DNA from: Gammaproteobacteria bacterium
Lineage (GTDB): Bacteria; Pseudomonadota; Gammaproteobacteria; GRL18
NCBI GenBank assembly: GCA_027012135.1
Contig: JALUZF010000063.1
Coordinates: 1 to 36,554, forward strand
Reading direction: 5' to 3'
Length of the DNA: 36,554 nucleotides
Shown here: one piece after another, positions 1 through 15,371 of the stretch
How positions within the stretch are numbered: position 1 is the first letter of the stretch
Layout: each line of letters opens with the position of its first letter
Position numbers and translations under genes: made by a program
The notes under the pieces: model-generated
What the model saw: only the letters and a program-made list of their open reading frames with translations
Database searches by the model: none
What the model was told of the DNA's origin: nothing

Positions 1-476
1 GGTAAGAATAGAAGTGTATTAATAATATCTACTAATAAATTTTGCACATAAATTTTTTTAGATGATAATCTAACAATATTTTTATTACCAACAAGAAGTG
101 ACAAAACCCATGAATAAACAAACATAACATCAACATTACTCGGTGTTATATGAAAAGCTACTCCTCTGGGTCTGTAAATATTTTTCCCTGAATAAAAATG
201 TTTTTTAAGTATGCCAATATGACTCTTTCGAAGCCAGAAACCTAATGCCACCAGTTCGCCATGTTGTCTGTATATTTTATTATTAAGAAGTGAATCACTG
301 AGCTGTTGACAAAACTGAACCACGGTCTCATTAAAGGGCGAATCAGATAGTCCAGCAGGCATTGATGATACGATCTTTTTTGCATCAGGCAAGTTTAGAT
401 CTTTACTCTTATCTAAATTACTGGTAGGTATCACTACAGCCTCGAGTTTCAGATTGAGGTAACCTTCCATAGACAT
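1..476 (-). CDS. LuxC-type acyl-CoA/acyl-protein reductase, N-terminal part (runs off left edge)
   Basis: This reading frame is open from an ATG at 474-476 to the window edge, about 158 codons, so only the N-terminal part is present. The translation contains GELVALGFWLRKSHI, then RPRGVAFHITPSNVD and LLVGNKNIVRLSSK. These match the LuxC/acyl-reductase family (PF05893), whose nucleotide-binding part has the H-x-x-P-x-N-V and GN-x-N-I-V patterns. LuxC enzymes reduce a fatty acyl group, held as a thioester on LuxE or CoA, to an aldehyde with NADPH. The start lies inside the end of the upstream luxE-like gene (59-bp overlap, different frame). An AAGGGC-like ribosome site lies about 10 bp before the ATG; a second ATG two codons later is possible. 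The stretch is very A/T-rich. The catalytic cysteine region lies outside the window, so activity cannot be judged. Confidence 0.82.
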   Translation of the reverse strand, partial: MSMEGYLNLKLEAVVIPTSNLDKSKDLNLPDAKKIVSSMPAGLSDSPFNETVVQFCQQLSDSLLNNKIYRQHGELVALGFWLRKSHIGILKKHFYSGKNIYRPRGVAFHITPSNVDVMFVYSWVLSLLVGNKNIVRLSSKKIYVQNLLVDIINTLLFL

Positions 477-1491
477 GAAAGTAATGCCCTTTTCTACCAC
501 ATGAACAATTATCAGTTCCTATAATTCGTCCTAAATCTTCAGTGAGAATACTATGACCCGGATAACTTCGTGGTAAAACAGATAAAAGCTGGATTAAACC
601 TTTTTCTCCATTATCTAATACACGATAAGTTTGAATATCTCTGATAAGTATATCTGAAAAAACCGGTGTATGTAAAAATCCATGTTCACATTCGACATAA
701 ACTGTTCCAGTCTGTTCAACCATTCCATAAAAATTATGCACCCTTGTATTTCCAAGAATATCATAACAGAATTGCTTAAATGTATGATTATCAACTGATT
801 GTGTTTGTAGCTTTTTCCATCCGCCACTATGAAAAAGAATGGAATTCGCTATATTCAGGCTTTGCCCCTGCTCTTTTAAAGGCTGAACAAGATATTTCCA
901 TATCATAAATGTAAAACCAAAAATCAATATTGTCTGATTAGAATGTTTTACGAGAAAATCATCAATAGCTTTATAATTTATGGACATATCACTATTTAGA
1001 GCATAGGTATGATCTCTTCCAAGAAATGATAACCCCTTAATACCAGCACCTCTTGCTGAAAACGATTTTTTATTTTTTATTATATCAGGCGAATCAATCA
1101 ACAACATCGGCAGCCTTTGTTTTCCAGTAAATTCCTGCAGGATTTTTGACAGAACTTTACTTTGTTCTTTAGCAGATTGCCCATCCAGAAAAATATTCGA
1201 TACATTTTCTGATGAAGTACCTGATGAATACAATCGTTTGAATATGTTATCCGATGAAATACTTTTTAATTCCAGCATTTTAAATAACCTTGCAACAATA
1301 TAGGGCTGTTGTTGACAATCTGACACTTCCAGTTTAAAGCTCATTGCATTTATTAAATTACGGTACTCCTTACAATTATTATAGTGATGAATATTCAATT
1401 GATTCAGTGCATTATTCAACAATATTCTTTTTTCATCATGCTTTAAGTCAAAAACAGGTAATGAATAAAAAGAGGATAACAAATCATCCAT
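418..1491 (-). CDS. LuxE-type acyl-protein synthetase
   Basis: A 357-residue protein of the LuxE family (PF04443, ANL-like adenylating enzymes). LuxE activates a fatty acid with ATP and holds it as a thioester for transfer to the LuxC reductase. Visible motifs are the phosphate loop LYSSGTSSE (residues 88-95), HSGGWKK (221-227), the YGMVEQTG segment (255-262, equivalent to the YGxTE motif) and DLGRI (319-323). A C-terminal CSCGRKG Cys pair is at 329-335. The start has a strong AGGAGAG ribosome site. It overlaps the end of the acyl-ligase gene by 8 bp, and the LuxC-like start overlaps its 3' end, so translational coupling is likely. No luciferase genes (luxA/B) are visible. In this setting the LuxE/LuxC pair probably makes an acyl-derived substituent for the glycan, not light; that role is inferred. 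Confidence 0.88.
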   Translation of the reverse strand: MDDLLSSFYSLPVFDLKHDEKRILLNNALNQLNIHHYNNCKEYRNLINAMSFKLEVSDCQQQPYIVARLFKMLELKSISSDNIFKRLYSSGTSSENVSNIFLDGQSAKEQSKVLSKILQEFTGKQRLPMLLIDSPDIIKNKKSFSARGAGIKGLSFLGRDHTYALNSDMSINYKAIDDFLVKHSNQTILIFGFTFMIWKYLVQPLKEQGQSLNIANSILFHSGGWKKLQTQSVDNHTFKQFCYDILGNTRVHNFYGMVEQTGTVYVECEHGFLHTPVFSDILIRDIQTYRVLDNGEKGLIQLLSVLPRSYPGHSILTEDLGRIIGTDNCSCGRKGHYFHVYGRLPQSETRGCSDTYQ

Positions 1492-2878
1492 TATTCAACT
1501 CTCCTGTTACCTGTTGATAAATCTTCATGTAATCTTTCTTGCCATTTTCATTATAAGGAAAAGATGATGTGTTTTTTACATGTATTAGACCGGGATAAAT
1601 ATGTAAGCATTCATGGAGGATGTGTTTAACTTTTTCAGACGGATCATCTTTGCTTTTGATCATAATAACCAGAGCATCATCCTGACCTGTACAGGCAGAA
1701 TCAAAGCCTCTTTCCAGAAGAAATTTTTCCACATCAGATAAATTAATACGTAAACCGGAAACTTTTATAAATCGGGACTTACGACCTGTTATATAATACC
1801 TGCCCTCTTTATCCCTATAAGCCAGATCGCCTGTATGTAATGAACCTAATTTTTCATCAGAAGCCAGATCATCTCTGTTATTGGCATAACCCATCATAAC
1901 ATTCGGACCTTTATATGTAAGCTCTCCTTCTTTATTAGCTTCTGTAATTAGTTTGTTTTCATTATCAATTAACTCAAAACGGCCTCCAGGTATTTCAAAT
2001 CCAATACTTTGAGGGTTTTTTAGCACCTGATCCGATGGCAGATACGACATTCTCGCAGTCGCTTCAGTCTGACCATACATTATAAAAAAACGTCTGGATG
2101 TTTTAGCAGCATATTCCGCAAAGTAAGTCACTAACTCAGGAGCAAGCTTCCCCCCTGCCTGTGTCAAAGTTTTCAGAGAGGGTAACTCCCTATCGGTTAA
2201 TTTTAGTTTTTTATATATTTCGTAGATATAGGGAACACCTGTTAAGCCAGTAATCTGATATTGTTCAATTTGCTGCCAAAAAGAACGAGTCATTATAGAG
2301 GCACTGGAAACTAAAACAGATGCCCCCGCGTATAAATGGCTGGTTAGTACAGAAAGACCGTAGGAATAACTTAATGGTAACGAGGTTATTGCACGGTCTT
2401 TTTTTGATATTTCCAGGTAGCTAGCTATTGATTTGGCATTTTCATACAGATTTGAGTTGGATATCTTAACTTGTTTTGGAGTACCGGTCGATCCTGAGGT
2501 TGAAAGTAAAAAACAGAGATCGGGATGTAAAGCAACTGGTTTATTTACCAAGTTTTCTATATTCTGACTGGTATCATCCGTATGATAAATAATATTCGGC
2601 AAGTAAATATCTATCAGTTTAGACAACATTGAGTTATCTACAGTTTCCGGAATTAAAAAAGCGACATGATGACTTCTCATAACAGCAGTTATGGCAAGAA
2701 CGGTTGCTATATTTTGCTGACACAGAATAAATATCAACAAAGGATTATTATTAACCTGATCAAGCTCCTCATTAATCTGATCGGTTTTCAGGCATAGTTG
2801 ATTGTATGTCATTTCAGAACCATCCTGATCAATTAAAGCTATACCCTGATGTTGTTCAAGAAGCCGCTTAAAACTCAA
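1484..2878 (-). CDS. AMP-forming acyl-CoA/acyl-ACP ligase (TTG start)
   Basis: A 464-residue adenylate-forming (ANL) ligase that activates a carboxylic acid with ATP and passes it to CoA or an ACP phosphopantetheine. The motifs are complete and in order: A3 loop STSGSTGTPK (126-135), A5 YGQTEA (268-273), A7/A8 HTGDLAYRDKEG and YITGRKSRFIKVSG (348-375), and the C-terminal catalytic lysine in NENGKKDY (443-450). The start is TTG at 2876-2878, overlapping the TGA of the preceding dehydrogenase gene as TTGA. It is chosen because a good GGTGGAG ribosome site sits 7 bp upstream, and the next in-frame ATG (codon 23) would cut into the N-terminal fold. The ACP two genes upstream makes an ACP-loading role attractive, but the substrate is unknown. 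Confidence 0.9.
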   Translation of the reverse strand: MSFKRLLEQHQGIALIDQDGSEMTYNQLCLKTDQINEELDQVNNNPLLIFILCQQNIATVLAITAVMRSHHVAFLIPETVDNSMLSKLIDIYLPNIIYHTDDTSQNIENLVNKPVALHPDLCFLLSTSGSTGTPKQVKISNSNLYENAKSIASYLEISKKDRAITSLPLSYSYGLSVLTSHLYAGASVLVSSASIMTRSFWQQIEQYQITGLTGVPYIYEIYKKLKLTDRELPSLKTLTQAGGKLAPELVTYFAEYAAKTSRRFFIMYGQTEATARMSYLPSDQVLKNPQSIGFEIPGGRFELIDNENKLITEANKEGELTYKGPNVMMGYANNRDDLASDEKLGSLHTGDLAYRDKEGRYYITGRKSRFIKVSGLRINLSDVEKFLLERGFDSACTGQDDALVIMIKSKDDPSEKVKHILHECLHIYPGLIHVKNTSSFPYNENGKKDYMKIYQQVTGELNNG

Positions 2879-3687
2879 AAGTGTACTCCACCATCCACAT
2901 CAATAACCTGACCGGTGATATAAGAAGACCAGTCACTTGCCAGAAAGAGGCAGGTATTTGCCACTTCTTCCGGCTGCCCAAAACGTTGCAAAGCAATTCT
3001 TGTTCGGATCTGTTCTTTTTCCTTATCAGTAAGTACTGACAACAGAGATGTGTTAATAACTCCGGGTGCAATTGCATTAACACGAATTTGATAATTTGCT
3101 AATTCCTGGGCCAGAGAACGTGTCAATCCACTGACAGCAGCTTTACTGGCAGCATAAATACTTTGCCCCTGCTGGCCATACTCTCCTAACATAGAAGCAA
3201 TATTTATAATGCTTCCGCCTCCATTACGGATCATTAATCTTGAAACATATTGGCAACAACGTATCACTGCAAAAGTATTAATTTCAAATTGAGACTGTAT
3301 ATCTTCTGATTTTACAAATGCCAGAGGTTTAGGTGTCATTTTCCCGGCATTATTGATTAAAATGTCGATCCCCCCAAAAGATGAAATATCTGCAAATGTC
3401 TTTTTTACTGTATTTTCATCTGTTAAATCAACTGCATAATATAATACTTTATTTGCATAGCCATCTGTTTTTTCTCTCTTGTTCAGCGGGGCTTCCTGAG
3501 AATAAATAAGCTGAATCTCGTGAACAAGCTCTTTAAGATTCTCTTCAGTTCTTGATATCAGAACAAGATTAACACCAGCACGAGCAAAGGCTTTGGCCAT
3601 TGCAGCGCCTATACCCCTGGATGCTCCTGTAATTATTGCTTTTTTTCCGGAAAGTTTCAGGCTTTGCTCAATTTTATAATTCAACAT
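2875..3687 (-). CDS. Short-chain dehydrogenase/reductase (FabG-like)
   Basis: A 270-residue classical SDR. It has the NAD(P) glycine motif TGASRGIG (20-27), NNAG (112-115), catalytic Ser165, and Tyr178/Lys182 in YAASK; the C-terminus ends in DVDGG, as in FabG-like reductases. Arg46 after the second strand (LISRTEEN) favours NADP(H). The ~20 residues around 64-78 (SQEAPLNKREKTDGY) look like an insertion between the cofactor strand and VDLTD. The gene overlaps the ACP gene by 14 bp upstream and the ligase start downstream. It therefore sits between a carrier protein and an acyl activator, suggesting reduction of a 3-oxoacyl-ACP or a related keto group. It could instead act on a sugar; the sequence alone does not decide. 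Confidence 0.9.
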   Translation of the reverse strand: MLNYKIEQSLKLSGKKAIITGASRGIGAAMAKAFARAGVNLVLISRTEENLKELVHEIQLIYSQEAPLNKREKTDGYANKVLYYAVDLTDENTVKKTFADISSFGGIDILINNAGKMTPKPLAFVKSEDIQSQFEINTFAVIRCCQYVSRLMIRNGGGSIINIASMLGEYGQQGQSIYAASKAAVSGLTRSLAQELANYQIRVNAIAPGVINTSLLSVLTDKEKEQIRTRIALQRFGQPEEVANTCLFLASDWSSYITGQVIDVDGGVHF

Positions 3688-3928
3688 TATATTTTTTCAA
3701 AATCTCTTTACACTTGCCAACACTACTCATATCAATAATATCATCAATATCCAGCATAATATTAAATTCAGCTTCCAGCTGGGCCACCAGAGCCATATGT
3801 GCAGTTGAATCCCACTGTTGAATACTATTATATTCCAGCTCATCATTAATCTGAGATTCAGAAATTGATAACGACTGGCTAAAAACTTTCTTTAAACGTT
3901 GAATATTGTTAACTTTAGTTTGAGTCAT
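3674..3928 (-). CDS. Acyl carrier protein
   Basis: An 84-residue acidic helical protein of the phosphopantetheine-binding family (PF00550). The attachment serine is Ser41 in QWDSTAHM, matching the D-S-x-x-x-[LM] motif of ACPs. The following helix (LVAQLEAEFNIMLDIDDI) is typical. It is a dedicated ACP, not the housekeeping AcpP, whose DSLD motif and fab-cluster context are absent. It is first in the overlapping run ACP-SDR-ligase-LuxE-LuxC and follows pseH by 36 bp. It probably carries the acyl group on which those enzymes act. The ribosome site upstream is weak. WDSxxH-type ACPs are often found in surface-polysaccharide and flagellin-glycosylation clusters (recalled, not searched). Confidence 0.9.
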   Translation of the reverse strand: MTQTKVNNIQRLKKVFSQSLSISESQINDELEYNSIQQWDSTAHMALVAQLEAEFNIMLDIDDIIDMSSVGKCKEILKKYNVEL

Positions 3929-3964: not shown

Positions 3965-4501
3965 TTATATTCTGATAATTTTTTTTAATTCGTTTTTACC
4001 TTGCAAATAACGTTCCTTTGTCAGATGCATAGTAACAATATCTTCTATTTCAGATACTATTTGATAGCCGAGTTTTTTGTTAAACCTTATTGCAGCCTGA
4101 TTTTGGGACAATACAATGGCTTCTAATTCTTTCTCACACAACTGGAAAAAAACAAAATCAAGTAATGCCAATGCCAGACAAAAAGCTAAAATGGTACCAC
4201 GATATTTTTCTTCACCAATATAGAGTCCTGTTTGCCGGTTTTCATAATTAAAATTTGCATACCCCACCGGTTTATCTTTGTATTCAACAACAAAATGAAA
4301 TGCCTGCTGGTTCTTTTGTTGTATTGAAATTTTTTGAAACCATTTTTTCTGTTCTGCTGTTGAAATAATCGACTGGGACAACATGTTTTTCCGTATTTCT
4401 GAAGAATTACGCCATGTCCTCAACAACTCCAGATCACACACGGTTACTTGACGCAATCTCAGTTTATACGCATTTATTACCTGTTGCTCTCTATTTTTCA
4501 T
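3965..4501 (-). CDS. pseH: PseH-type UDP-amino-sugar N-acetyltransferase
   Basis: A 178-residue GNAT protein. The N-terminal LRTWRNSSEIRKNM (27-40) and the following STAEQKKWF are the hallmark of PseH, which acetylates the 4-amino group of UDP-4-amino-4,6-dideoxy-N-acetyl-L-altrosamine with acetyl-CoA in pseudaminic acid synthesis. The acetyl-CoA part is degenerate but recognisable (GEEKYRGTILAFCLALALLDF), followed by NQAAIRFNKKLGYQ. It lies 152 bp downstream of pseC on the same strand, as in many Pse clusters. Position next to an acyl-ligase/ACP cassette leaves open that it transfers an acyl group other than acetyl. The pathway assignment is good; donor specificity is inferred. Confidence 0.85.
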   Translation of the reverse strand: MKNREQQVINAYKLRLRQVTVCDLELLRTWRNSSEIRKNMLSQSIISTAEQKKWFQKISIQQKNQQAFHFVVEYKDKPVGYANFNYENRQTGLYIGEEKYRGTILAFCLALALLDFVFFQLCEKELEAIVLSQNQAAIRFNKKLGYQIVSEIEDIVTMHLTKERYLQGKNELKKIIRI

Positions 4502-4653: not shown

Positions 4654-5811
4654 TTAAACCAGTATTTCAGATAAGGTTCCGACGATATAATCTACTATCT
4701 CATCACTTAAATCAACATATATAGGGAGGGTAATAGCTTTCTGATAATAGGCAACACTCTCTGGAAAATCCTGTTCTTTAAAACCAATGTTTTTAAAAAA
4801 GGGTTGTGTATGAACAGGAATATAGTGTACATGGACACCTATATTTTTTTTCCGAAGTTCATCAAAGATTTCTTTTCGGTTTTTATTTAACTTATTCAGC
4901 TGTAAACAGATCACATACAGATGCCATGATGACTGACATGATTTATACTGTTGAGGAATATTCAGCGGCAGCGCACTTAATAATCGATTATAACGTTCTG
5001 CAATCTTACTGCGCCGGGATACAAATTCGTTCAGACGTTGCAGCTGAGATAATCCCAGAGCCGCCTGTATATCTGTTATCCGGTAGTTATAACCCAGTTC
5101 TGTCTGCTGATAATACCAGAGACCATGAGACTCACCTTCCATTAAAGAAGGATCTCTGGTTATCCCATGTGTCCTTAACAAAACCGCTTGTTCTGCCAGA
5201 GAAGAACTATTGGTCAGCAGCAATCCACCCTCCCCTGCAGTGATCATTTTTGCCGGGTGCAGGCTGAAAATGGTTATATCTGAATAACGGCAGGAACCAA
5301 TCCTGTGATTATTATATTCTCCCCCCAGGGCATGAGCAGCATCTTCAATAATTTTAAAACCGTATTCCTGAGATAAGTGGTAAATCGCTTCCATATCACA
5401 GGACTGACCAGCAAAATGCACTGGAATTATCGCAGCAGGTAAGCGGTCATTCTCCCTGGCAGTCTCCAGCTTCTGTTTAAGTACTGCGATACTAATATTA
5501 TAGGTATGCGGATCAATATCAATAAAGTCGATACTGGCACCGCAGTACAGAACGCAATTGGCGGAAGCCACAAAAGTATTTGGCGATGTCCAGACAATAT
5601 CGCCCTGACCAATCCCCAAAGCTCGACAGGCCAGATGCAGTGCAGCCGTACCACTACTGACAGCAATTGCATACTGTGCCTGACAATATTGTGCTATAGC
5701 CGTTTCAAATTGATTTACAACCGGCCCCTGAGTAATAAAATCAGATCGCAGTACCTGGACAACGGCCTCAATATCCTTTTCCGATATACTTTGTTTAGCG
5801 TAGGGTATCAT
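4654..5811 (-). CDS. pseC: PseC-type UDP-sugar aminotransferase
   Basis: A 385-residue DegT/DnrJ/EryC1-family PLP aminotransferase. It begins MIPYAKQSISEKDIEAVVQVL and has SDFITQGP, both characteristic of PseC. The PLP lysine is Lys188 in SLHPAKMITAGEGG; EDAAHALGG (156-164) holds the cofactor-contacting Asp and His. PseC transfers an amino group from glutamate to the 4-keto sugar made by PseB, giving UDP-4-amino-4,6-dideoxy-N-acetyl-L-altrosamine. Full family length, no frame damage. An intact pseB, normally the gene directly before pseC, is absent: only a short relic is found at 5850-5945. If pseC is active, its substrate must come from a pseB elsewhere in the genome. Confidence 0.92.
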   Translation of the reverse strand: MIPYAKQSISEKDIEAVVQVLRSDFITQGPVVNQFETAIAQYCQAQYAIAVSSGTAALHLACRALGIGQGDIVWTSPNTFVASANCVLYCGASIDFIDIDPHTYNISIAVLKQKLETARENDRLPAAIIPVHFAGQSCDMEAIYHLSQEYGFKIIEDAAHALGGEYNNHRIGSCRYSDITIFSLHPAKMITAGEGGLLLTNSSSLAEQAVLLRTHGITRDPSLMEGESHGLWYYQQTELGYNYRITDIQAALGLSQLQRLNEFVSRRSKIAERYNRLLSALPLNIPQQYKSCQSSWHLYVICLQLNKLNKNRKEIFDELRKKNIGVHVHYIPVHTQPFFKNIGFKEQDFPESVAYYQKAITLPIYVDLSDEIVDYIVGTLSEILV

Positions 5812-6104: not shown

Positions 6105-7259
6105 ATGCCTGAAATTATAAAAAATCTGGTTTTGTACAAAAATTACCGTTTTTTTGCCTCTTTTCCAAGTATTGTACTTTTAAACAGTACTCAGAATAAT
6201 GAATCTCAGTTACTTTTACTGTTTCGCCGGGCCAGGGACAGTCGCTGGCTGCTGGACGAAGATAATGAGACGCATCAAAAATTAAAACACCTTGTGGATC
6301 ATATTGACAGCCGCTCCCAGATCACTGGAATATTTTTTGATTGTCAGCTTAACTCCTTAACAGAAGCGATACCGCTTAGCGCCAATCCGGAAGCAGCGGA
6401 TCAGGATGCGAATCTTTTATTGCTCAGGAACGGTTCATTATTACTTTCCTCTTTTTCCTGGTATCCCTTACATGCCCAGTTAGCCGAAGCCTTAAAAGAA
6501 ACCGGTACCCGTTTGTACGGGCATCCGGACATTACCGGCTGTCATTACCTGATGTGGGGTGGTTTCACCCGGCTCAGTCATGATCAGGGTAAAAGCTGGA
6601 CTGAACACAATTATTTGCCCCAGCCCCCTGGTGCTAAAGCCCTTATTCCCGATAAACGGGACTATCATGGCGGACCGGTTCGGGGGCAGGCCATTGAAGT
6701 GGGTAATGAAATTTTATTGCCGGTTTACGGCACACTGAATAAAGACAAAGTATCCTCAAGCTATCTGTATGTTAGCTCTGATCAGGGCCAGAGCTGGTCA
6801 TTCCGCTCTGTTATTGCACACGATCCGGAACAAAAGCTCAGTTTTACTGAACCGGCTTTGTTACATATAAAAAATAAAACCATTATGGCCTTTATTCGTA
6901 ACACTTCCGGCAATGATCATTTTGTTACTGCACTTTCCACTGACTGTGGTCAAACCTGGTCCCAATGGCAGGAAAACTTATTAACCGGGCATCCGGTACA
7001 TCCGCTTAAATTATCTGATGGCAGAATTTTCCTCAGTTACGGCTACCGTCATAAGCCCTATGGGATCAGAGCCCACTTAATGGACAGTAAAGCAGAGCAC
7101 TTGCTGGGAGATGAAATTCTTATTCGGGATGATGGTTTATGTGCTGATGTGGGTTACCCATGGGCTGTAGAACTGCCGGATGGTAATGTATTAGTGGTTT
7201 ATTATTTTACTCAGGAGGACGGTGTTCGGCATATTGCAGGCAGTATTGTGGAATTATAA
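6105..7259 (+). CDS. Sialidase-fold (BNR/Asp-box) protein
   Basis: A 384-residue protein with three clear Asp-boxes (S-x-D-x-G-x-x-W): SHDQGKSW (158-165), SSDQGQSW (224-231) and STDCGQTW (278-285). This marks a six-bladed sialidase-like beta-propeller (BNR families). Related segments are FASFPSIV (17-24), LLLLFRRARD (36-45), GGPVRGQAIEV (189-199), FTEPAL and FIRN (247-266) and PYGIRA (318-323). The first RIP-type arginine of classical GH33 sialidases is not obvious: the equivalent position reads SFP. No signal peptide is visible, so it is probably cytoplasmic. It is the only plus-strand gene among the minus-strand Pse genes. It may hydrolyse or bind a nonulosonic acid, or be a non-catalytic sugar-binding propeller; its real role is unknown. 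Confidence 0.78.
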   Translation: MPEIIKNLVLYKNYRFFASFPSIVLLNSTQNNESQLLLLFRRARDSRWLLDEDNETHQKLKHLVDHIDSRSQITGIFFDCQLNSLTEAIPLSANPEAADQDANLLLLRNGSLLLSSFSWYPLHAQLAEALKETGTRLYGHPDITGCHYLMWGGFTRLSHDQGKSWTEHNYLPQPPGAKALIPDKRDYHGGPVRGQAIEVGNEILLPVYGTLNKDKVSSSYLYVSSDQGQSWSFRSVIAHDPEQKLSFTEPALLHIKNKTIMAFIRNTSGNDHFVTALSTDCGQTWSQWQENLLTGHPVHPLKLSDGRIFLSYGYRHKPYGIRAHLMDSKAEHLLGDEILIRDDGLCADVGYPWAVELPDGNVLVVYYFTQEDGVRHIAGSIVEL

Positions 7260-7308: not shown

Positions 7309-8301
7309 TTACGCATTATGCAAATCAATAATCCTGCTGGCAACCCGTCCTGCACCTTTTGCATCCACAATTTTTCTGGCCGTCTGACTGTATTGTTCCA
7401 GATTGTTATCCGTCAGTAATAATTCCGCCTGTTGCAGCAATTCATTTACCGGTTGAACTTTTCGGCAGTCCACACTCCGGCACCAGCCCAGCAGACTATG
7501 TTCCCTGGCTGCCAGCCACTGGTTATCCGCCACTACGGCAAACACCGAGGGAACAGCGCAGCAGGCCAGTTCAAAAATTGTGGAACCGGCTGCTGAAATG
7601 GCCAGCCGTGCCGTACTGAACAGCTCAGCCATATTTTGCACATTATGCCGATACTGGTAATGCTGCTGCTCACAATGCTTTTCAATAGCCGGCCCATCTG
7701 CACAGGCCGCTCCGGTAACAACAACTATCCTGTATGAAGTGATAGCATCATAATCGGCAACTGCCTTAATAACAGGCAGGGTCAGACCGGCTACATCAGA
7801 ACCGCCAAAGGTAATAACGATACGATTTCTGGTTTCAAATGCCGGCAGTTTGACAGTCTGAAAGGATTCTCCCAGTAAACAATATTCCGGCCCCAGTAAT
7901 AACTGGGCTCTGGATGATAATTGATAGCTGGTAAACGCCCGGGCTTTAGCCAACGGATTAATGATAATATCCGCATACAAATGCCCACGATTACCCATAT
8001 CATCCAGGACAATTAAATGGCTGTCCGGGTGTTTATACAACACATAAAGTTCCTCTGAACTGTATTCATAATGATCCACAATAATCCACTGATATGACTT
8101 ACTTATGGCCAGGAATTCATCTTCATTTTCAATACTGTGCAGCCTGTGAGGTGAAAGACAGATTTCTGAATCAATAATTTTACAGGCAAAGGTACAGGCC
8201 ACTCCCTGAGCATGCAGAGCATCGGCCAGGGCACGACAGCGCATTAAATGACCCATACCATTTTTTTTACCCGCATCCAGCCTGAAAATAGCCTGTTTCA
8301 T
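7309..8301 (-). CDS. pseG: PseG UDP-sugar hydrolase
   Basis: A 330-residue GT-B-fold protein. The N-terminus IFRLDAGKKNGMGHLMRC carries the PseG signature R-x-D-A-...-G-x-G-H-x-M-R-C, with His18 the usual catalytic residue. A C-terminal nucleotide-binding loop reads ISAAGSTIFELACC. PseG removes UDP from UDP-2,4-diacetamido-2,4,6-trideoxy-L-altrose, freeing the hexose for PseI. Its start overlaps the pseI stop by 4 bp (ATGA-type coupling). The sequence between motifs is complete, with GGSDV (glycine-rich loop) after VITF. Some PseG proteins are fused to PseH; here PseH is a separate gene about 2.8 kb downstream. Confidence 0.93.
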   Translation of the reverse strand: MKQAIFRLDAGKKNGMGHLMRCRALADALHAQGVACTFACKIIDSEICLSPHRLHSIENEDEFLAISKSYQWIIVDHYEYSSEELYVLYKHPDSHLIVLDDMGNRGHLYADIIINPLAKARAFTSYQLSSRAQLLLGPEYCLLGESFQTVKLPAFETRNRIVITFGGSDVAGLTLPVIKAVADYDAITSYRIVVVTGAACADGPAIEKHCEQQHYQYRHNVQNMAELFSTARLAISAAGSTIFELACCAVPSVFAVVADNQWLAAREHSLLGWCRSVDCRKVQPVNELLQQAELLLTDNNLEQYSQTARKIVDAKGAGRVASRIIDLHNA

Positions 8302-9353
8302 TGCAATAATTCCCAGCTAATAGCTGTACCCCTGGGTATGTCCTGCCTGGCCGTTTTGCCCAGCAGCTGTTCATAATGTTTTGGCGGCAGGCCGAAACCA
8401 GGGCGAATAACACGAATATTCTGTTCTGACAAACATTCCCCGGCCCTTATATCCCGGGAACAGTACACTGAACGGCGGTATTTTTTTGACACCTGTTCAT
8501 TATCTGAGCCACCGTACTGAACTTTTCCCATGGCTCTCCAGACGGTTTCAGTCTCCTGTACTAAGTGCTTCAATTCATCCGGTTCCAGAGAAAACTCTGC
8601 ATCCACACCACCGGCCTGGCGATCCAGAACAAAGTGTTTTTCAATGACGCAACTGCCCAGTGCTACGGCAGCCAGGGCCACACTATTACCCAGGGTATGA
8701 TCAGACAGGCCAACCAGGGTACCGAACTTTTTCTGCATATCCACCAGGGTAAGCAAATTACAATCCGATGCATCGGCCGGATAGTTACTGGTGCATTTTA
8801 ATAATACAACCTGCCGGTTTCCGCTGTCAGAAATGGTACCCAACAGTTCCTCAATTTCCTGTTCACTGGCCATACCGGTAGAAACAATCAGGGGTTTACC
8901 GGTTTGTGCCACTTTTTTTATCAGCGGCAGATCGGTATTTTCAAAGGAGGCTATTTTATAACAGGGTACATCAAGGTTTTCCAGGAAGTCCACAGCACTG
9001 GCATCAAAGGGTGAGCTGAAAGCCTGCAAACCAAGGGATCTGGCTTTTTTAAACAGGGGTTCGTGCCATTCCCATGGGGTCGCTGCTTTTGAGTAAAGTG
9101 AATACAGGCTTTCACCCTGCCACAAACTGTCCCTTTCAGTGACCATAAAATCCTGGCTGTTTATATCAAGAGTCATGGTCTCAGGCGTATAAGTCTGCAG
9201 TTTTATTGCATGAACGCCGGATTGAGCCGCAGATTCAATCATTTGCTCGGCAAGTTGATAATTCTGCTGATGATTACCCGATAATTCAGCAATAATAAAA
9301 GGCCTCTGCCGGGAACCAATGATTTGATTGCCTATATGGATAGTCTGGGACAT
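8298..9353 (-). CDS. pseI: PseI pseudaminic acid synthase
   Basis: A 351-residue NeuB-family synthase that condenses 2,4-diacetamido-2,4,6-trideoxy-L-altrose with phosphoenolpyruvate to make pseudaminic acid. PFIIAELSGNHQQN (18-31) is diagnostic for PseI over the sialic/legionaminic synthases. The barrel continues with IKLQTYTPETMT, SSPFDASAVDFLE, KIASFENTD, STGMAS, GLSDHT and IEKHFVLDR. A C-terminal SAF (antifreeze-like) domain covers about residues 290-350 (RRSVYCSRDIRAGE...GFGLPP). Full length. It is 27 bp downstream of the cytidylyltransferase and coupled to pseG, giving a pseF-pseI-pseG run directly after flgL. Confidence 0.94.
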   Translation of the reverse strand: MSQTIHIGNQIIGSRQRPFIIAELSGNHQQNYQLAEQMIESAAQSGVHAIKLQTYTPETMTLDINSQDFMVTERDSLWQGESLYSLYSKAATPWEWHEPLFKKARSLGLQAFSSPFDASAVDFLENLDVPCYKIASFENTDLPLIKKVAQTGKPLIVSTGMASEQEIEELLGTISDSGNRQVVLLKCTSNYPADASDCNLLTLVDMQKKFGTLVGLSDHTLGNSVALAAVALGSCVIEKHFVLDRQAGGVDAEFSLEPDELKHLVQETETVWRAMGKVQYGGSDNEQVSKKYRRSVYCSRDIRAGECLSEQNIRVIRPGFGLPPKHYEQLLGKTARQDIPRGTAISWELLQ

Positions 9354-9380
9354 GGTAGAATTATATTTTCCGGAAAAACT

Positions 9381-10109
9381 TCAGCTTATTTTCTTTTGTT
9401 CAACAGCTGCATTCAAGTCATAAATATACGGATATTGTTCTAAAACCGCTATCATTTCATCATAACTGAAGTCAGTCCTGCAGTGTAGCTTTTTATAAAG
9501 TTCCATAACAGCCCGGTAATCACTTTCCTCATCCAGTGTCAGACGATACCTGGAATGATCCGTGACATTCTTATATTGACCAAAGCTCAGTCTGTCCCTG
9601 ATGGTGCGATAAAAATAGGGAGTAACATGTTCTTTTTCATAAGGCTCCGAGGCCCTGTTCCAGGCTTCTTTTAACAGGGCATAGGAAAAGATTTCTGTAT
9701 CCATACCTCTGGGAAAACCTGCACCAGTACCGGCACTGACATAATCAAAGTGATGGCTGGTATAATAATCAATGGTCTTACGGGTAATTTCAGGATCAAT
9801 CAGGGGACAGTCACTGGTCTGGCGCACAATAATATCAGAGTCATCTGCTCCAGAAAAAGTGGCAGCCTGATAGTAACGATCCAGCACATTATCCGTATCA
9901 CCCTGGAAACATCGTATACCCAGAGAGTGACACAGGTCAACGATAGGCTTTTCCGTTCCATCATTGGTCGTAGCAATAATAATATTATCCTGATAATTAT
10001 CCAACCGTTCCAGCATTACCTGCAGTACTGGCTTATCACACAGGGGCAGCATTACTTTACCCGGTAGACGGGTTGATGTCATACGCGCCTGTATAATTAT
10101 AAACAACAT
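9381..10109 (-). CDS. pseF: SpsF-type cytidylyltransferase (PseF role)
   Basis: A 242-residue nucleotidyltransferase of the SpsF/CMP-KDO-synthetase-like family. The N-terminal IIIQARMTSTRLPGKVMLPL is the classic R-x-x-S-x-R-L-P-x-K nucleotide-binding motif. RQTSDCPLIDPE (95-106) is the metal-binding region, and RLTLDEESDY lies near the C-terminus. From position it should activate pseudaminic acid as CMP-Pse, the donor for glycosylation. The best-studied PseF enzymes (Campylobacter, Helicobacter) are NeuA-like; this one is SpsF-like, a related variant common in other Pse clusters. It follows flgL by 36 bp on the same strand. The symbol is given by role, with moderate certainty. Confidence 0.85.
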   Translation of the reverse strand: MLFIIIQARMTSTRLPGKVMLPLCDKPVLQVMLERLDNYQDNIIIATTNDGTEKPIVDLCHSLGIRCFQGDTDNVLDRYYQAATFSGADDSDIIVRQTSDCPLIDPEITRKTIDYYTSHHFDYVSAGTGAGFPRGMDTEIFSYALLKEAWNRASEPYEKEHVTPYFYRTIRDRLSFGQYKNVTDHSRYRLTLDEESDYRAVMELYKKLHCRTDFSYDEMIAVLEQYPYIYDLNAAVEQKKIS

Positions 10110-10145
10110 AAAATTAACTCTTAAGTTCTAAAACCTGAAACCGGT

Positions 10146-11102
10146 TTAAAGAAAATTAAATAAAGACAGGCCCTGAATTTTAGTAAAGGTCTGCTGAGAT
10201 GCCTGCAGGCCGATCTGCTGTTGTTCCAGCCGGCTAATGGCCTCAGTATAATCCAGATCCTGAGTATCTGATAATGTAGAGGCCAGCTGCACCAGATAAT
10301 CTTCATTGACGTTTTCCTGGCTTTCCGTAGCATTTAAACGGGCACCAATGGTCGCCTGTTTATCAACAATATGTCCCATGGCCGCATCCAGGTTACCTAT
10401 AATGCGATTCATGGAATCATGGAAATCTTCTGCAGGTACTGCAGTTGGAGAACCGGCATTAGTATTAAGCACCGTTTGCAGCTCTCCGACAATGGCAAAT
10501 ACACTCATGGGACTATTTGAAGTATTGATACCATTATCCGTGCCCCGAATATCCATAAATACATCAAAACCATTATCCCCACTGGCAATCTGACGGGTAG
10601 GCCCAATTTGCAGTAATTGCTGCCCCTGATCACCTTTATATTCTATAGTACCGCCATTATTGACAAAAGGCTGATTGCGATTATCAAAACCGGCAAACAG
10701 ATATTCACCATTGCCATTGGTGGTATTAGCCAGCCCTACCAGCGCTCCTAATTGCTGCTCTATTTCCTTACCGATATCAGCTCGCTGTACTGCATCATAA
10801 GTATCATTATTAGCCTGTATGGTTAATTCCCTTACTCTCTGCAGAACACTGACCACACTATCAATGGCTGTCTCTTCAATTTCCAGGGAGCTTTTTGTGG
10901 TCGAGATATTATCCTGAAATTTTTCAGTTCTGGATTTTGCCTGGTTCAATCCAAGTACACGCGCCGAGCCGGCCGGATCATCAGAAGGCACAACAATTTT
11001 TTTGCCCGTTGACATTTGCAGCATGGTTTTATTGAGATTGTAATTCTGAGTGTTCATAGCAGTAACACCCTGAGAATAAGCTGTACTGGTGGCAACTCTC
11101 AT
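10146..11102 (-). CDS. flgL: Flagellar hook-filament junction protein FlgL (HAP3)
   Basis: A 318-residue flagellin-like junction protein. The N-terminal coiled-coil part reads MRVATSTAYSQGVTAMNTQN, with STGKKIVVPSDDPAGSARVL, the flagellin/FlgL N-domain signature. The C-terminal helix reads YTEAISRLEQQQIGLQASQQTF and ends in LSLFNFL, as in FlgL. It joins the hook (through FlgK) to the filament. It is last in the flg run, 30 bp after flgK. Directly downstream come the cytidylyltransferase and PseI genes, so the filament junction and glycan genes may share a transcript. Length is normal. Confidence 0.95.
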   Translation of the reverse strand: MRVATSTAYSQGVTAMNTQNYNLNKTMLQMSTGKKIVVPSDDPAGSARVLGLNQAKSRTEKFQDNISTTKSSLEIEETAIDSVVSVLQRVRELTIQANNDTYDAVQRADIGKEIEQQLGALVGLANTTNGNGEYLFAGFDNRNQPFVNNGGTIEYKGDQGQQLLQIGPTRQIASGDNGFDVFMDIRGTDNGINTSNSPMSVFAIVGELQTVLNTNAGSPTAVPAEDFHDSMNRIIGNLDAAMGHIVDKQATIGARLNATESQENVNEDYLVQLASTLSDTQDLDYTEAISRLEQQQIGLQASQQTFTKIQGLSLFNFL

Positions 11103-11132
11103 AACTGTTTATCCTGTATCCAATTTATTATT

Positions 11133-13103
11133 CTAGGCCACTGAATTAAGAAGTGTCTGGAACATTTCATCTGCAATTGAAATAACTCTGGCGGAAGCCT
11201 GGTAAGCCTGCTGAAATTTCAGCAGATCGGCTGCTTCTTCATCCAGATTCACACCGGAATAACTTTCACGCTCGGCTTTTGCCTGCTCACTCAAGGTTAA
11301 CTGAGCCTTAAGATCCACTTCCGCCGAATGAGTTTTGGTGCCAACATCAGAAACAATAATTCCGTAAGCAGCCTGAAAATCGGTAGAGCTGTTTTCAATG
11401 GTTTTAGTTGTCTGTAGTTTGGCCATCAGCAGACCGTTACGATTATCATCATAAGGAGCAGAATTATTACTGATCACAAAAGCATCCGTATCAACCGGCT
11501 GTCCGGACACGGTAAAACTCATATTGCCGTAACCGGCAAAGGTGTATGTTCTGCCACCAAAATCTGTTGCTGGATCATAAGTCAGATTGCCACCCGGACC
11601 ACCTGTAACCACAAATCCCGGTCCACCTGCACCATCACCGTTAGCTGAATCAAAAGTCAGAGTAATATCTCCGGCAAGCGGTATATTGGTCGTATTAGTA
11701 ATAGAAGGCAAGGTGATTTTTCCGGTACCTGAATTTACGGCACTGCCATCTGCATTAGTAATGGCTCCGGAAACGACCGGGCCGGCCAGTGCAATATCCA
11801 GAACATTATTAACAGAAACATCAATACTGGATGCTGCGGCATAAGTTGGCCGCATTAAAAACGATTCACCGGCAGCAATTGTACTGTTTATTGAGAAACC
11901 CTCTGTTGCCTGTACTGCAGTGCTTAAGCCGCCAATAGTTGCATTACTGAAGACTGTCCCATCATTGAGCCGGGTCAGACTATAATTAGTACCATCATAA
12001 TCCAGCCGGTAGTCACTAGTGGTAAGCAGACGACTGTCAGTAATAGTAAGACTGGCAGTCGTTGCAGAATTTTGACCAGGCAAACCTGCTATCGGTCCAG
12101 CCTGGTCAACAAAAAAGTCCTGCCCCAGCGGAAAAGGTGCCGAGGTTCCCTGAATCGTCATACCCAGACGATGCTGGGTATTCATTTCTTCAGTTAAAGC
12201 CATAGCAACACGTCCCAGTGCCCGACGACTCTGTTCCAGTACACTGGCCTTAAAATCCAGTACCCCCTGCAGTTCACCACCGGTAATAGAGTTGGTTACA
12301 TCAACCGAACCCGCTCCCTGGCTCATAATTATATCCAGATCCTCGGCATTAAAACGATTTTTCTGGGTGGATAGAGTGGCAGCATTACCGCCTATCACCA
12401 GAGCCTGGCCGGAACCAATAAACAGGTTTGCCGCACCATCATCCTGATAAACAATACTGACATCAATTTTTTCAGATATCTGCTTGATCAGAGCTTCTCT
12501 CTGATCAATAAGATCATTAGGTAATTTACCCTGACCAGCACCAATTTTCTGCACAATATCCGCATTCATCTTGGCAATAGAACTGGCAGAATCTGAAATG
12601 TCCTGGGTAATATCAACCAGCGACTGATTAACCTGCCCGTTCAGCTCACTAAAACGGTCATCCAGAAGTTTAAAACGATCAGCCATGGTATTGGCTTCTG
12701 TTAATAAAACCTGACGCGAAGGCGTTGAAGAGGGATTATCATTAGCTTCCTGCAGGGCACTGAAAAAACTTTCCAGGGTGGGGGTTAAGCCGGAATCAGG
12801 ATTAGCCAGGATATTATCTATCTGGGTTGACAACTTAAAGTAAGCATCAAACTGGCCATACTGACTATTAGCATTTCTGATCTGCTCTTCAAGAAACTCA
12901 TTAGCCAGACGCACGGTATTCTGTACATCAACACCCGTTCCAATATAACCGGAACCGGAATATTGCGGTTTACGCGCGGCCTGCTCGGCTCTCTGCCTGC
13001 TATAACCTTCTGTATTAACATTGGAGATATTATGACTGGCTGTTGCCAGTTGACGCTGGGCTGTCAGTAAGCCTGATGTCCCAATCCCAAAAATGCCGCC
13101 CAT
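11133..13103 (-). CDS. flgK: Flagellar hook-associated protein FlgK (HAP1)
   Basis: A 656-residue protein with the axial-family ends expected of FlgK. The N-terminus has GIGTSGLLTAQRQLATASHN and NVNTEGYSRQRAEQ; the C-terminus has SGVNLDEEAADLLKFQQAYQ, then ISIADEMFQTLLNSV. A FlgK-type helical region (about 90-330) precedes a variable surface domain of about 250 residues rich in T, G and N, exposed at the hook-filament junction. It lies 117 bp downstream of flgJ, a gap with no obvious sigma-54 element, and 30 bp upstream of flgL. Confidence 0.96.
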   Translation of the reverse strand: MGGIFGIGTSGLLTAQRQLATASHNISNVNTEGYSRQRAEQAARKPQYSGSGYIGTGVDVQNTVRLANEFLEEQIRNANSQYGQFDAYFKLSTQIDNILANPDSGLTPTLESFFSALQEANDNPSSTPSRQVLLTEANTMADRFKLLDDRFSELNGQVNQSLVDITQDISDSASSIAKMNADIVQKIGAGQGKLPNDLIDQREALIKQISEKIDVSIVYQDDGAANLFIGSGQALVIGGNAATLSTQKNRFNAEDLDIIMSQGAGSVDVTNSITGGELQGVLDFKASVLEQSRRALGRVAMALTEEMNTQHRLGMTIQGTSAPFPLGQDFFVDQAGPIAGLPGQNSATTASLTITDSRLLTTSDYRLDYDGTNYSLTRLNDGTVFSNATIGGLSTAVQATEGFSINSTIAAGESFLMRPTYAAASSIDVSVNNVLDIALAGPVVSGAITNADGSAVNSGTGKITLPSITNTTNIPLAGDITLTFDSANGDGAGGPGFVVTGGPGGNLTYDPATDFGGRTYTFAGYGNMSFTVSGQPVDTDAFVISNNSAPYDDNRNGLLMAKLQTTKTIENSSTDFQAAYGIIVSDVGTKTHSAEVDLKAQLTLSEQAKAERESYSGVNLDEEAADLLKFQQAYQASARVISIADEMFQTLLNSVA

Positions 13104-13220: not shown

Positions 13221-14264
13221 TCAATTAAAGGCCACCTTATTTTTTAGTTGAGCCTGCACCTGGATATATTCACTATTTAAAACTTTCATAACCTTTTCTG
13301 AGTATTCAGGATCGGTTGCATAGCCTGCTTTGTGCAGTGATTTAATATAAGTTCGGTTAAGTTCATCATCAAAGTCCCTGTTATCCCTGGTGGGCTTGTT
13401 TATAGAAACATCATGCAATGATCGTTCCATACCCAGCGCTTTTCTATAGCGAGGACTGTTAAGAATAAAGTCCGCATAATCATTAAAGCTTTGTTCAAAC
13501 GAATCATAGGCTCTGAATGCGCTTTTTTGCTGGATCGGCCTGCCGTGAGCATATTCCATAGACAACTTATCCATCCGCTTGCCCTGCCAGTTCCGACCTG
13601 CCTTAATATTAAACAGGTTAAAACTGCTTTGCTGATCAGAAGCAATAATATGTTTTCCCCAGCCGGTTTCCAGTGCAGCCTGGGACAGAACAATTTCTGC
13701 GGATACACCCAGTTTTCTGGCAGTTTTTTCAGCCAAAGGCCAGAGTGTTTGTACAAATTCTCGAGGATTTTCAAAGTGGCTATTGTTCTGTCCCCCGGTA
13801 ATCGCTCCCTGGAATACAGGTTCAGACTGTTTCTGCTCTACCTGTTCAGGCTGGCTCATACCAGCTGAATCTTTTTTCTGCAGACCATGATAAGGATCCA
13901 TAAAAAACTTTCTCTGAGGCATAATCAGCTTACGCTCACTATTTTGTCCGTTTTGCACCAGACCAGCCTGAGTCTGTACCTGATCAACAATGGATTCAGC
14001 CAGTCCAATCCCCTGCCCTTTTGACAACTCCATGGCCAGCTGCTGGTCATACATATCTCGGTAGCTGTCCATAGCCTGACTTTTAAAATAGGGGTCTTCC
14101 ATACCGGTCTTACGCAGCCCCTTTATCATCATACTGATCATAACCGCTTCAAACTGGCGTGCCACTTCCGGCAAAGCTGAACGGGCATCTTTACGAGCTG
14201 AAGACTTTAAATTGTGTAAACCATTTAAATCAGTATAAATATCAGTTTTTGGATTAATACTCAT
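13221..14264 (-). CDS. flgJ: FlgJ rod-cap and peptidoglycan hydrolase
   Basis: A 347-residue two-domain FlgJ. The N-terminal rod-binding domain contains VARQFEAVMISMMIKGLRKT (34-53) and YDQQLAMELSKGQGIGLAESI. A low-complexity linker (about 105-165) leads to the C-terminal glucosaminidase-like domain, with SAEIVLSQAALETGWGKH (188-205) and catalytic Glu199, then SFNLFNIKAG and FNDYADFI. The enzyme caps the growing rod and opens the peptidoglycan so it can pass. Full-length FlgJ with the hydrolase domain is typical of gamma- and betaproteobacteria; alphaproteobacterial versions often lack it. It starts 12 bp after the flgI stop. Confidence 0.95.
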   Translation of the reverse strand: MSINPKTDIYTDLNGLHNLKSSARKDARSALPEVARQFEAVMISMMIKGLRKTGMEDPYFKSQAMDSYRDMYDQQLAMELSKGQGIGLAESIVDQVQTQAGLVQNGQNSERKLIMPQRKFFMDPYHGLQKKDSAGMSQPEQVEQKQSEPVFQGAITGGQNNSHFENPREFVQTLWPLAEKTARKLGVSAEIVLSQAALETGWGKHIIASDQQSSFNLFNIKAGRNWQGKRMDKLSMEYAHGRPIQQKSAFRAYDSFEQSFNDYADFILNSPRYRKALGMERSLHDVSINKPTRDNRDFDDELNRTYIKSLHKAGYATDPEYSEKVMKVLNSEYIQVQAQLKNKVAFN

Positions 14265-14276
14265 AGTAACTGCCAG

Positions 14277-15371
14277 TTAAATTATGATTAATTCAGCATT
14301 TAAAGATCCGGCCGATTTTAATGCTTCCAGAATCGCCACCAGTTCAGCAGGACTGGCCCCGATATTATTAATAGCCCTGACTACTTCATCCAGAGTTACT
14401 CCCAGATTAAACAGAAATGCACCTTTATTGGTGGCAGTCACTTCAACATCCGATTTAGGTACTACCGCAGTCTGACCATTGGAAAAAGCGGGTGGCTGAC
14501 TGATGGTGGGATCATTAGTAATAGTGACCGTTAAATTTCCATGTGAAACAACAGCAGGCTGTACAATAACATTCTGTCCGATAACCACTGTACCGGTTCT
14601 TGCATTAACCACTATTCTTGCTGCTGCGGTACCGGGATTAAAGGTCAGATTTTCCAGCATGGATAAATACGAGACTTTCTGAGACAGGTCAACCGGTGCA
14701 CTGACCCTGACCGAAGAAGCATCAATAGCACTGGCTGTACCCAGCCCCATAGTGTCGTTGATAACCTCAGCAAGTCGATGAGCCGTTGTAAAATCAGGGC
14801 GATGAAGATTTAAAGTAATTGAATTTCCATTAATAAAAGAGGTAGGGACTTCACGCTCTACAGTTGCACCATTAGGAATACGTCCACTGGTAGGTACATT
14901 AACGGTGACAGACGAACCGTCATTACCACCAGCATTCAGACCAATAACCACCAGATTACCCTGAGCTACTGCATATATCTGTCCATCAGCTCCTTTTAAT
15001 GGAGCCATTAATAAAGTACCACCACGGAGATTTTTTGAGTTACCAATAGAAGAAACATTGACATCAATTTTCTGTCCCGGCTTGGTAAATGGCGGAAGTT
15101 CAGCACTTAAAGACACGGCGGCCACATTTTTAATCGGCAGATTGGCACCTGGAGGTAAAGTTATACCTAACTGTTCCAGCATATTTCTCATGCTGTCGTC
15201 TGTAAAAGAGGCACTGGAATCACCGGAACCATCCAGCCCCACCACCAGGCCATAGCCCACCAGGTGATTGGAACGAATCCCGGCCACAGTAGCAATATCC
15301 TTAATACGCTCCGCCAGAACCGTATTGCTCAGAAAACAGGAAATAAGGAAGAAAAGAATAAAACGATTCAT
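14277..15371 (-). CDS. flgI: FlgI flagellar P-ring protein
   Basis: A 364-residue periplasmic protein with a Sec signal peptide ([20 protein letters not shown]). The mature start [20 protein letters not shown] and [11 protein letters not shown] are diagnostic of FlgI. The C-terminus ([20 protein letters not shown]) is also conserved. It polymerises into the P ring around the rod in the peptidoglycan layer. The gap between flgH and flgI (229 bp) is unusually long for this operon and is filled by a repeat element at 15449-15601. Confidence 0.96.

Follow-up and report, generated by a model that had tools for sequence, protein, structure and literature searches.

A LuxE-LuxC and acyl carrier protein cassette joined to a flagellum-linked pseudaminic acid cluster, and its possible role in acylating pseudaminic acid

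The analysed window is a stretch of 36,554 nucleotides that makes up the entire contig C63 (JALUZF010000063.1) of a draft gammaproteobacterial genome. Its left end carries a cassette of five minus-strand genes that follow pseH and encode an acyl carrier protein (ACP), a short-chain dehydrogenase/reductase (SDR), an ANL-family ligase, a LuxE-like and a LuxC-like protein. The spacing between pseH and the ACP gene is 36 bp. The cassette genes overlap by exactly 14 bp (ACP/SDR), 4 bp (SDR/ligase, TTGA), 8 bp (ligase/LuxE) and 59 bp (LuxE/LuxC, with the ATG start at 476), confirming a preliminary description of this DNA. We consider it probable, at roughly 60%, that the cassette makes a short hydroxyacyl-ACP, used by PseH for the N-acylation of a pseudaminic sugar. 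The cassette and pseH are made up as follows:

3..476, minus strand: LuxC-like acyl reductase, N-terminal 158 amino acids only (PF05893 at 3.9e-9, a partial match; ATG start, with an alternative GTG start at 500, giving 3-500)
418..1491, minus strand: LuxE-like acyl-protein synthetase of a distinct subfamily, with Cys352 in an RGCSD motif and a SARGAGI motif (PF04443 at 6e-50)
1484..2878, minus strand: ANL-family acyl-AMP ligase, proposed loader of the ACP (TTG start; AMP-binding domain PF00501 at 1.6e-41; all core motifs)
2875..3687, minus strand: FabG-like reductase of the SDR type (adh_short_C2, PF13561 at 3e-65; TGASRGIG, Ser and YxxxK)
3674..3928, minus strand: ACP with phosphopantetheine site Ser41, codon 3806-3808 (weak NCBIfam ACP models only, 5e-5)
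3965..4501, minus strand: PseH-like GNAT sugar N-acyltransferase without the GxG loop for the pyrophosphate of coenzyme A (CoA) (TIGR03585 at 68.5 bits; loop comparison)

The ACP serine, the ANL motifs, the SDR triad and the LuxE motifs had been described as intact, which motif comparison bears out. Ser41 of the ACP lies in a DS motif and is kept in 28/28 relatives; the ACP relatives are 38-89% identical. The ligase contains STSGSTGTPK, YGQTEA, HTGD and NGKKDY, and its sequence matches in the PDB are led by oxalate-CoA ligase. The RGCSD cysteine motif of LuxE is kept in 31 of 33 proteins, and its AF2 model (pLDDT 89) has a PaaK/ANL fold. The contig ends within LuxC and thereby leaves its active site outside the window; the catalytic motif concerned (QxACSSP) is kept in 30 of 32 relatives, and the remaining fragment is 32-54% identical to the LuxC proteins of related cassettes. 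A genome of the same genus has the same gene run, with 80-89% protein identity. For pseH and the cassette genes, the ratio of nonsynonymous to synonymous substitution rates (dN/dS) between the two genomes is 0.06-0.20. These low values indicate purifying selection, and thus a working gene set instead of a chance arrangement.

LuxE and LuxC were previously assumed to activate and reduce acyl groups together. The family assignments hold, but, judged from their scores, the two proteins are not the fatty-acid enzymes of bioluminescence. The window LuxE reaches 76 bits and its relatives 58-86 bits, where the NCBIfam LuxE equivalog requires 550, and the LuxC of relative L006 has 32.5 bits against a LuxC equivalog cut-off of 750. 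LuxE-LuxC fusion proteins are found in clostridial genomes (L015, 9902-12289; L019, 9926-12283), suggesting that the two probably act together.

The pseudaminic acid genes lie directly upstream. The start of pseF is located 36 bp past flgL, followed by pseI, pseG, an opposite-strand gene, pseC and pseH, and flg hook genes are located further upstream. The position of flgL ties the pse genes to the flagellum. PseC, PseG and PseI are encoded alongside PseH:

4654..5811, minus strand: PseC aminotransferase, which makes the 4-amino acceptor sugar (TIGR03588 at 548 bits, above cut-off)
6105-7259, plus strand: BNR/sialidase-like protein without an evident signal peptide, inside the pse cluster
7309..8301, minus strand: PseG UDP-sugar hydrolase (TIGR03590 at 195.7 bits, above cut-off)
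8298..9353, minus strand: PseI, a NeuB-family synthase (PF03102 at 9e-89, SAF domain)
9381..10109, minus strand: PseF-type cytidylyltransferase (KdsB-type models at 9e-14; position)
10146..11102, minus strand: flgL, which ends the flagellar gene run immediately upstream of the pse genes (PF00669 at 5.9e-27)

The two flagellins of this genome are encoded on contig C166, not on C63. A Maf-type gene (PF01973) on C166 is divergent to a flagellin gene and is cut by the end of that contig. The BNR/sialidase-like protein has orthologues in two family members, L006 (54%) and L050 (62%), where they likewise lie at the pse locus whether or not the LuxE cassette is present; a faecal phage contig contains a further match, at 31.7%.

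The PseH of the window is unusual. It scores 68.5 bits against the TIGR03585 equivalog cut-off of 93.1 (those of G009 and G325 likewise score 68-70), and it lacks the glycine loop of GNAT motif A (GxG/A) for the CoA pyrophosphate. In the PseH of H. pylori, the main chain of Gly103, in this loop region, holds the pyrophosphate (PMC4363471). The loop is absent from all 22 carrier-linked PseH proteins and present in all 33 carrier-free ones, which consist of 13 proteins from gammaproteobacterial pse clusters and 20 cassette-free Bacilli controls. Ten of the 22, nine from Bacilli and one from Ponticoccus, were added after the idea of the loop had been formed; none of them has it. The L048 protein was scored as loop-less, since its regular-expression match to the loop pattern corresponds to the strand before the loop. 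The loop is missing in the PseH of L050, encoded beside an ACP, an SDR and a ligase without LuxE/LuxC, and in that of L059, which is fused to FkbH. On the tree, its loss requires three changes, two of them on well-supported branches, and all of them match carrier linkage. A single origin of the 19 cassette PseH proteins from pse clusters is not rejected (p-AU 0.37). As far as sequence comparison goes, the loss of the loop fits an acyl-ACP donor, though it is not proof of one.

Three other candidate marks were rejected. Loss of the catalytic tyrosine does not distinguish the cassette proteins, as cassette-free gammaproteobacterial PseH proteins mostly have His at this position. The YIG[DE] signature beside the loop is also found in cassette-free Bacilli PseH. 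A low PseH score does not mark pairing with an ACP, given that the ACP-paired L050 protein has 105.6 bits and several Bacilli cassette proteins pass the cut-off.

Both of the related loci have features of their own. L050 (G010), from the same family, is apparently the equivalent locus (7560-12566 and 13397-14539), with the order pseB-pseC-pseH-ACP-SDR-ligase; its ligase is only 26% identical, which looks like an exchange of the acyl module. The PseH-FkbH fusion of L059 (3581-5812, minus strand) is located in a complete pse cluster and suggests a glyceryl transfer to pseudaminic acid.

Proteins related to the window LuxE come from Gammaproteobacteria, from one deltaproteobacterium, and from Bacilli and Clostridia-type genomes; others are encoded on plasmids or megareplicons, in Ponticoccus, Rhizobium and Deinococcus. 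No relative was found in viral contigs when viral carriage was checked. In an even sample that includes the genome of the window, the cassette is present in 4 of 370 genomes of Gammaproteobacteria and in 13 of 399 of Bacilli. In 10 of the 13 Bacilli loci, pse genes are located within 10 kb of the cassette, some of them together with maf, fliD or fliS. PseH is found above cut-off in 10/13 Bacilli genomes with the cassette versus 20/386 others (p = 3e-10), and at E<=1e-10 in 3/4 gammaproteobacterial genomes with it versus 51/366 others (p = 0.01), both p values ignoring relatedness. The connection of the cassette to a pseudaminic acid cluster, noted in the preliminary description, therefore holds here and in relatives of two phyla. 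What does not hold is its specificity: such cassettes also occur outside pseudaminic acid and flagellar settings. PglD-type hexapeptide acyltransferases partner it in Deinococcus (at a capsule locus), in Rhizobium and in a deltaproteobacterium, and no flagellin was found in Megasphaera with related LuxE, LuxC, ligase and ACP genes. The common element across the loci is a carrier-protein module with some acyltransferase.

Other arrangements were also observed. Megasphaera and Megamonas (L020-L022, L026) share a conserved set of an ACP, a metallo-beta-lactamase-fold protein, LuxE, LuxC and a ligase, away from sugar genes. Some cassettes are accompanied by thiamine-diphosphate enzymes (transketolase pairs or IlvB-like) or by FabA/FabZ-like dehydratases, neighbours that would suit aldehyde chemistry. 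In family member L036 (5180-15862), LuxE, LuxC, an ACP, a FabA/FabZ-like dehydratase, an IlvB-like enzyme, a NeuB-like synthase, a ligase and a GNAT protein are encoded together, with a transposase between LuxE and LuxC.

An indication of the acyl size comes from Aeromonas, whose polar flagellin glycosylation island of group II contains orf1 (ACP), orf2 (reductase), orf3 (AMP ligase), luxE, luxC and fgi-1 (Forn-Cuni et al. 2021, PMC7874193). According to published data, the group II strain A. piscicola AH-3 carries a 376.14-Da pseudaminic acid derivative on its polar and lateral flagellins and a separate 102-Da unit at the distal end of the glycan, and the group I strain AH-1 has 403 Da instead. 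The fgi-1 mutant of AH-3 retains a lone 376-Da sugar, which places the extra 60 Da on the nonulosonic acid. Replacing one acetyl of Pse5Ac7Ac (316.127) by C4H6O3 (102.032) gives 376.148, and this is the sole chemically reasonable acyl group of C, H and O within 0.03 Da; the 102-Da unit fits the same formula. The computed alternatives are 360.15 for 3-hydroxybutanoyl, 400.22 for octanoyl and 484 for tetradecanoyl. O-methylglyceroyl has the same formula as the C4H6O3 acyl; the cassette contains no methyltransferase. Small hydroxyacyl N-substituents, including 3- and 4-hydroxybutyryl and malyl, are present on bacterial amino sugars (PMC3210612). An acyl group destined for pseudaminic acid, as initially suggested, is still the best reading, while the AH-3 masses are too small for the pseudaminic acid to bear a fatty acyl of at least eight carbons.

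The scheme that we infer, from the enzymatic steps to the acyl group and the flagellin target, would start with a carboxylate that is activated on LuxE, reduced by LuxC to the aldehyde and then by the SDR to the alcohol. In the simplest case, a C4 dicarboxylate such as malate would be converted into dihydroxybutanoate. The ANL ligase would adenylate this small hydroxy acid and load it onto Ser41 of the ACP. The loop-less PseH would then acylate the 4-amine of UDP-4-amino-4,6-dideoxy-AltNAc, with acyl-ACP instead of acetyl-CoA as the donor. PseG, PseI and PseF would convert the product into CMP-pseudaminic acid with the hydroxyacyl at N7, and Maf would transfer this hydroxyacyl pseudaminic acid to flagellin. 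The C4 identity of the acyl group is much less certain than the general scheme, and is put forward tentatively.

Several observations weigh against this scheme. With only two to three loop-loss events, the match to carrier linkage has no significance in terms of independent events. FdhC is apparently loop-less and yet CoA-bound, so loss of the loop does not exclude CoA. The gammaproteobacterial cassette PseH proteins have an Asn at the proposed general-acid position. No pseB match above cut-off was found in the draft genome; the gene may lie in an assembly gap, and the best PseB-like match, on C159, was rejected as the pathway pseB because it belongs to a different polysaccharide locus. The remainder of LuxC, sought across the rest of the draft genome, was not found either, leaving this gene incomplete. 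No cassette mutant is described in the accessible parts of the Aeromonas and enterobacterial papers (PMC7874193, PMC4875605). Finally, the match at 376 Da concerns one strain from the literature, AH-3, likened by its published description, and other formulas or attachment sites may apply.

Among the alternatives, the one that survives best is that the acyl group is meant for another glycan sugar or an O-antigen, for example the terminal 102-Da unit, with PseH as an ordinary acetyl-CoA enzyme. Cassettes that lack pse genes and lie in capsule-type loci beside PglD-type acyltransferases would suit this explanation, as would the distal position of the AH-3 unit and the polysaccharide genes that follow LuxC in L006 and L007 (nucleotidyltransferase-like and UDP-galactopyranose mutase-like). 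We regard it as unlikely: pseH immediately precedes the ACP gene in the window, L006, L007, L009 and L048, the loop change tracks the carrier, and the single 376-Da sugar of the fgi-1 mutant has its additional mass on the nonulosonic acid itself.

A fatty-aldehyde or "liposugar" module, in which a long-chain fatty acid, once reduced by LuxE and LuxC, ends on the glycan, was proposed for the Aeromonas group II cassette (PMC7874193) and similarly inferred for the enterobacterial islands (PMC4875605), and the family names LuxE, LuxC, FabG and ACP point the same way. Such a module is very improbable, considering how far LuxE and LuxC score below the long-chain equivalogs and that the AH-3 sugar has room for C4H6O3 only. 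Equally hard to sustain is a 3-hydroxybutanoyl-ACP route, with the SDR as a FabG making the donor for pseudaminic acid and LuxE/LuxC as accessories: nonulosonic acids are known to carry N-linked 3-hydroxybutyryl (PMC3210612), the SDR matches FabG models and L050 manages without LuxE/LuxC, but the predicted mass is 360.15 and not 376.14 Da, and the conserved, sometimes fused LuxE-LuxC pair is left unexplained.

If a short hydroxyacyl-ACP does feed PseH, this would account for flagellin glycan masses that have so far not been assigned, and would represent a use of LuxC/LuxE chemistry outside bioluminescence. The missing PseH loop would then be a sequence marker for genomes that put non-acetyl groups on pseudaminic acid. 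The five-gene set is found in flagellin islands of many bacteria, where it has been labelled as fatty-acid or "liposugar" genes without a test. A further possibility, rather doubtful at present, is that carrier-linked PseH proteins form a distinct class of acyl-ACP-dependent nucleotide-sugar N-acyltransferases, and that LuxE-LuxC are short-chain carboxylate reductases supplying a dihydroxybutanoyl-type group to flagellar pseudaminic acid. In that case, the 376-Da unit of Aeromonas, and perhaps its 102-Da unit too, would be identified.

In comparison with known systems, the cassette shares with the lux fatty acid reductase LuxC-LuxE (PDB 7xc6) the protein families and the C-terminal LuxE cysteine; it differs by its scores far below the equivalog cut-offs, and no luciferase gene is seen at the cassette. 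The nearest folds to the window PseH include FdhC and the H. pylori PseH. FdhC (PDB 5kta, 5ktc) is a nucleotide-sugar N-acyltransferase with a similar GNAT fold, which transfers a hydroxybutanoyl group and has no GxG loop in the alignment. In contrast, it is only 20-21% identical, acts on another sugar and was solved with CoA and a hydroxybutanoyl product. The Shewanella sfm operon consists of different genes; it was rejected as an analogue, and its 236-264-Da unit carries no weight here.

The closest systems are the flagellin islands. Those of enterobacteria contain Acp, LuxE, LuxC, CaiC and FabG (De Maayer and Cowan 2016, PMC4875605), which are the same enzyme families and are likened here by annotation alone; the L048 cassette had no DNA match in an E. 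coli genome collection. The Aeromonas group II island (PMC7874193) matches the cassette in all five genes and in their order after pseH, beside pse genes and linked to flagellin glycosylation, so that the similarity to Aeromonas-like islands suggested beforehand is borne out by a published relative. There, the conserved GT2 gene fgi-1 directly follows luxC, whereas the contig of the window ends inside LuxC. That paper assigns fatty-aldehyde chemistry to the cassette, which the evidence presented here disfavours. The gene arrangement exists as stated, is conserved and was known before; the present analysis contributes a specific, testable functional reading, together with evidence against the long-chain one.

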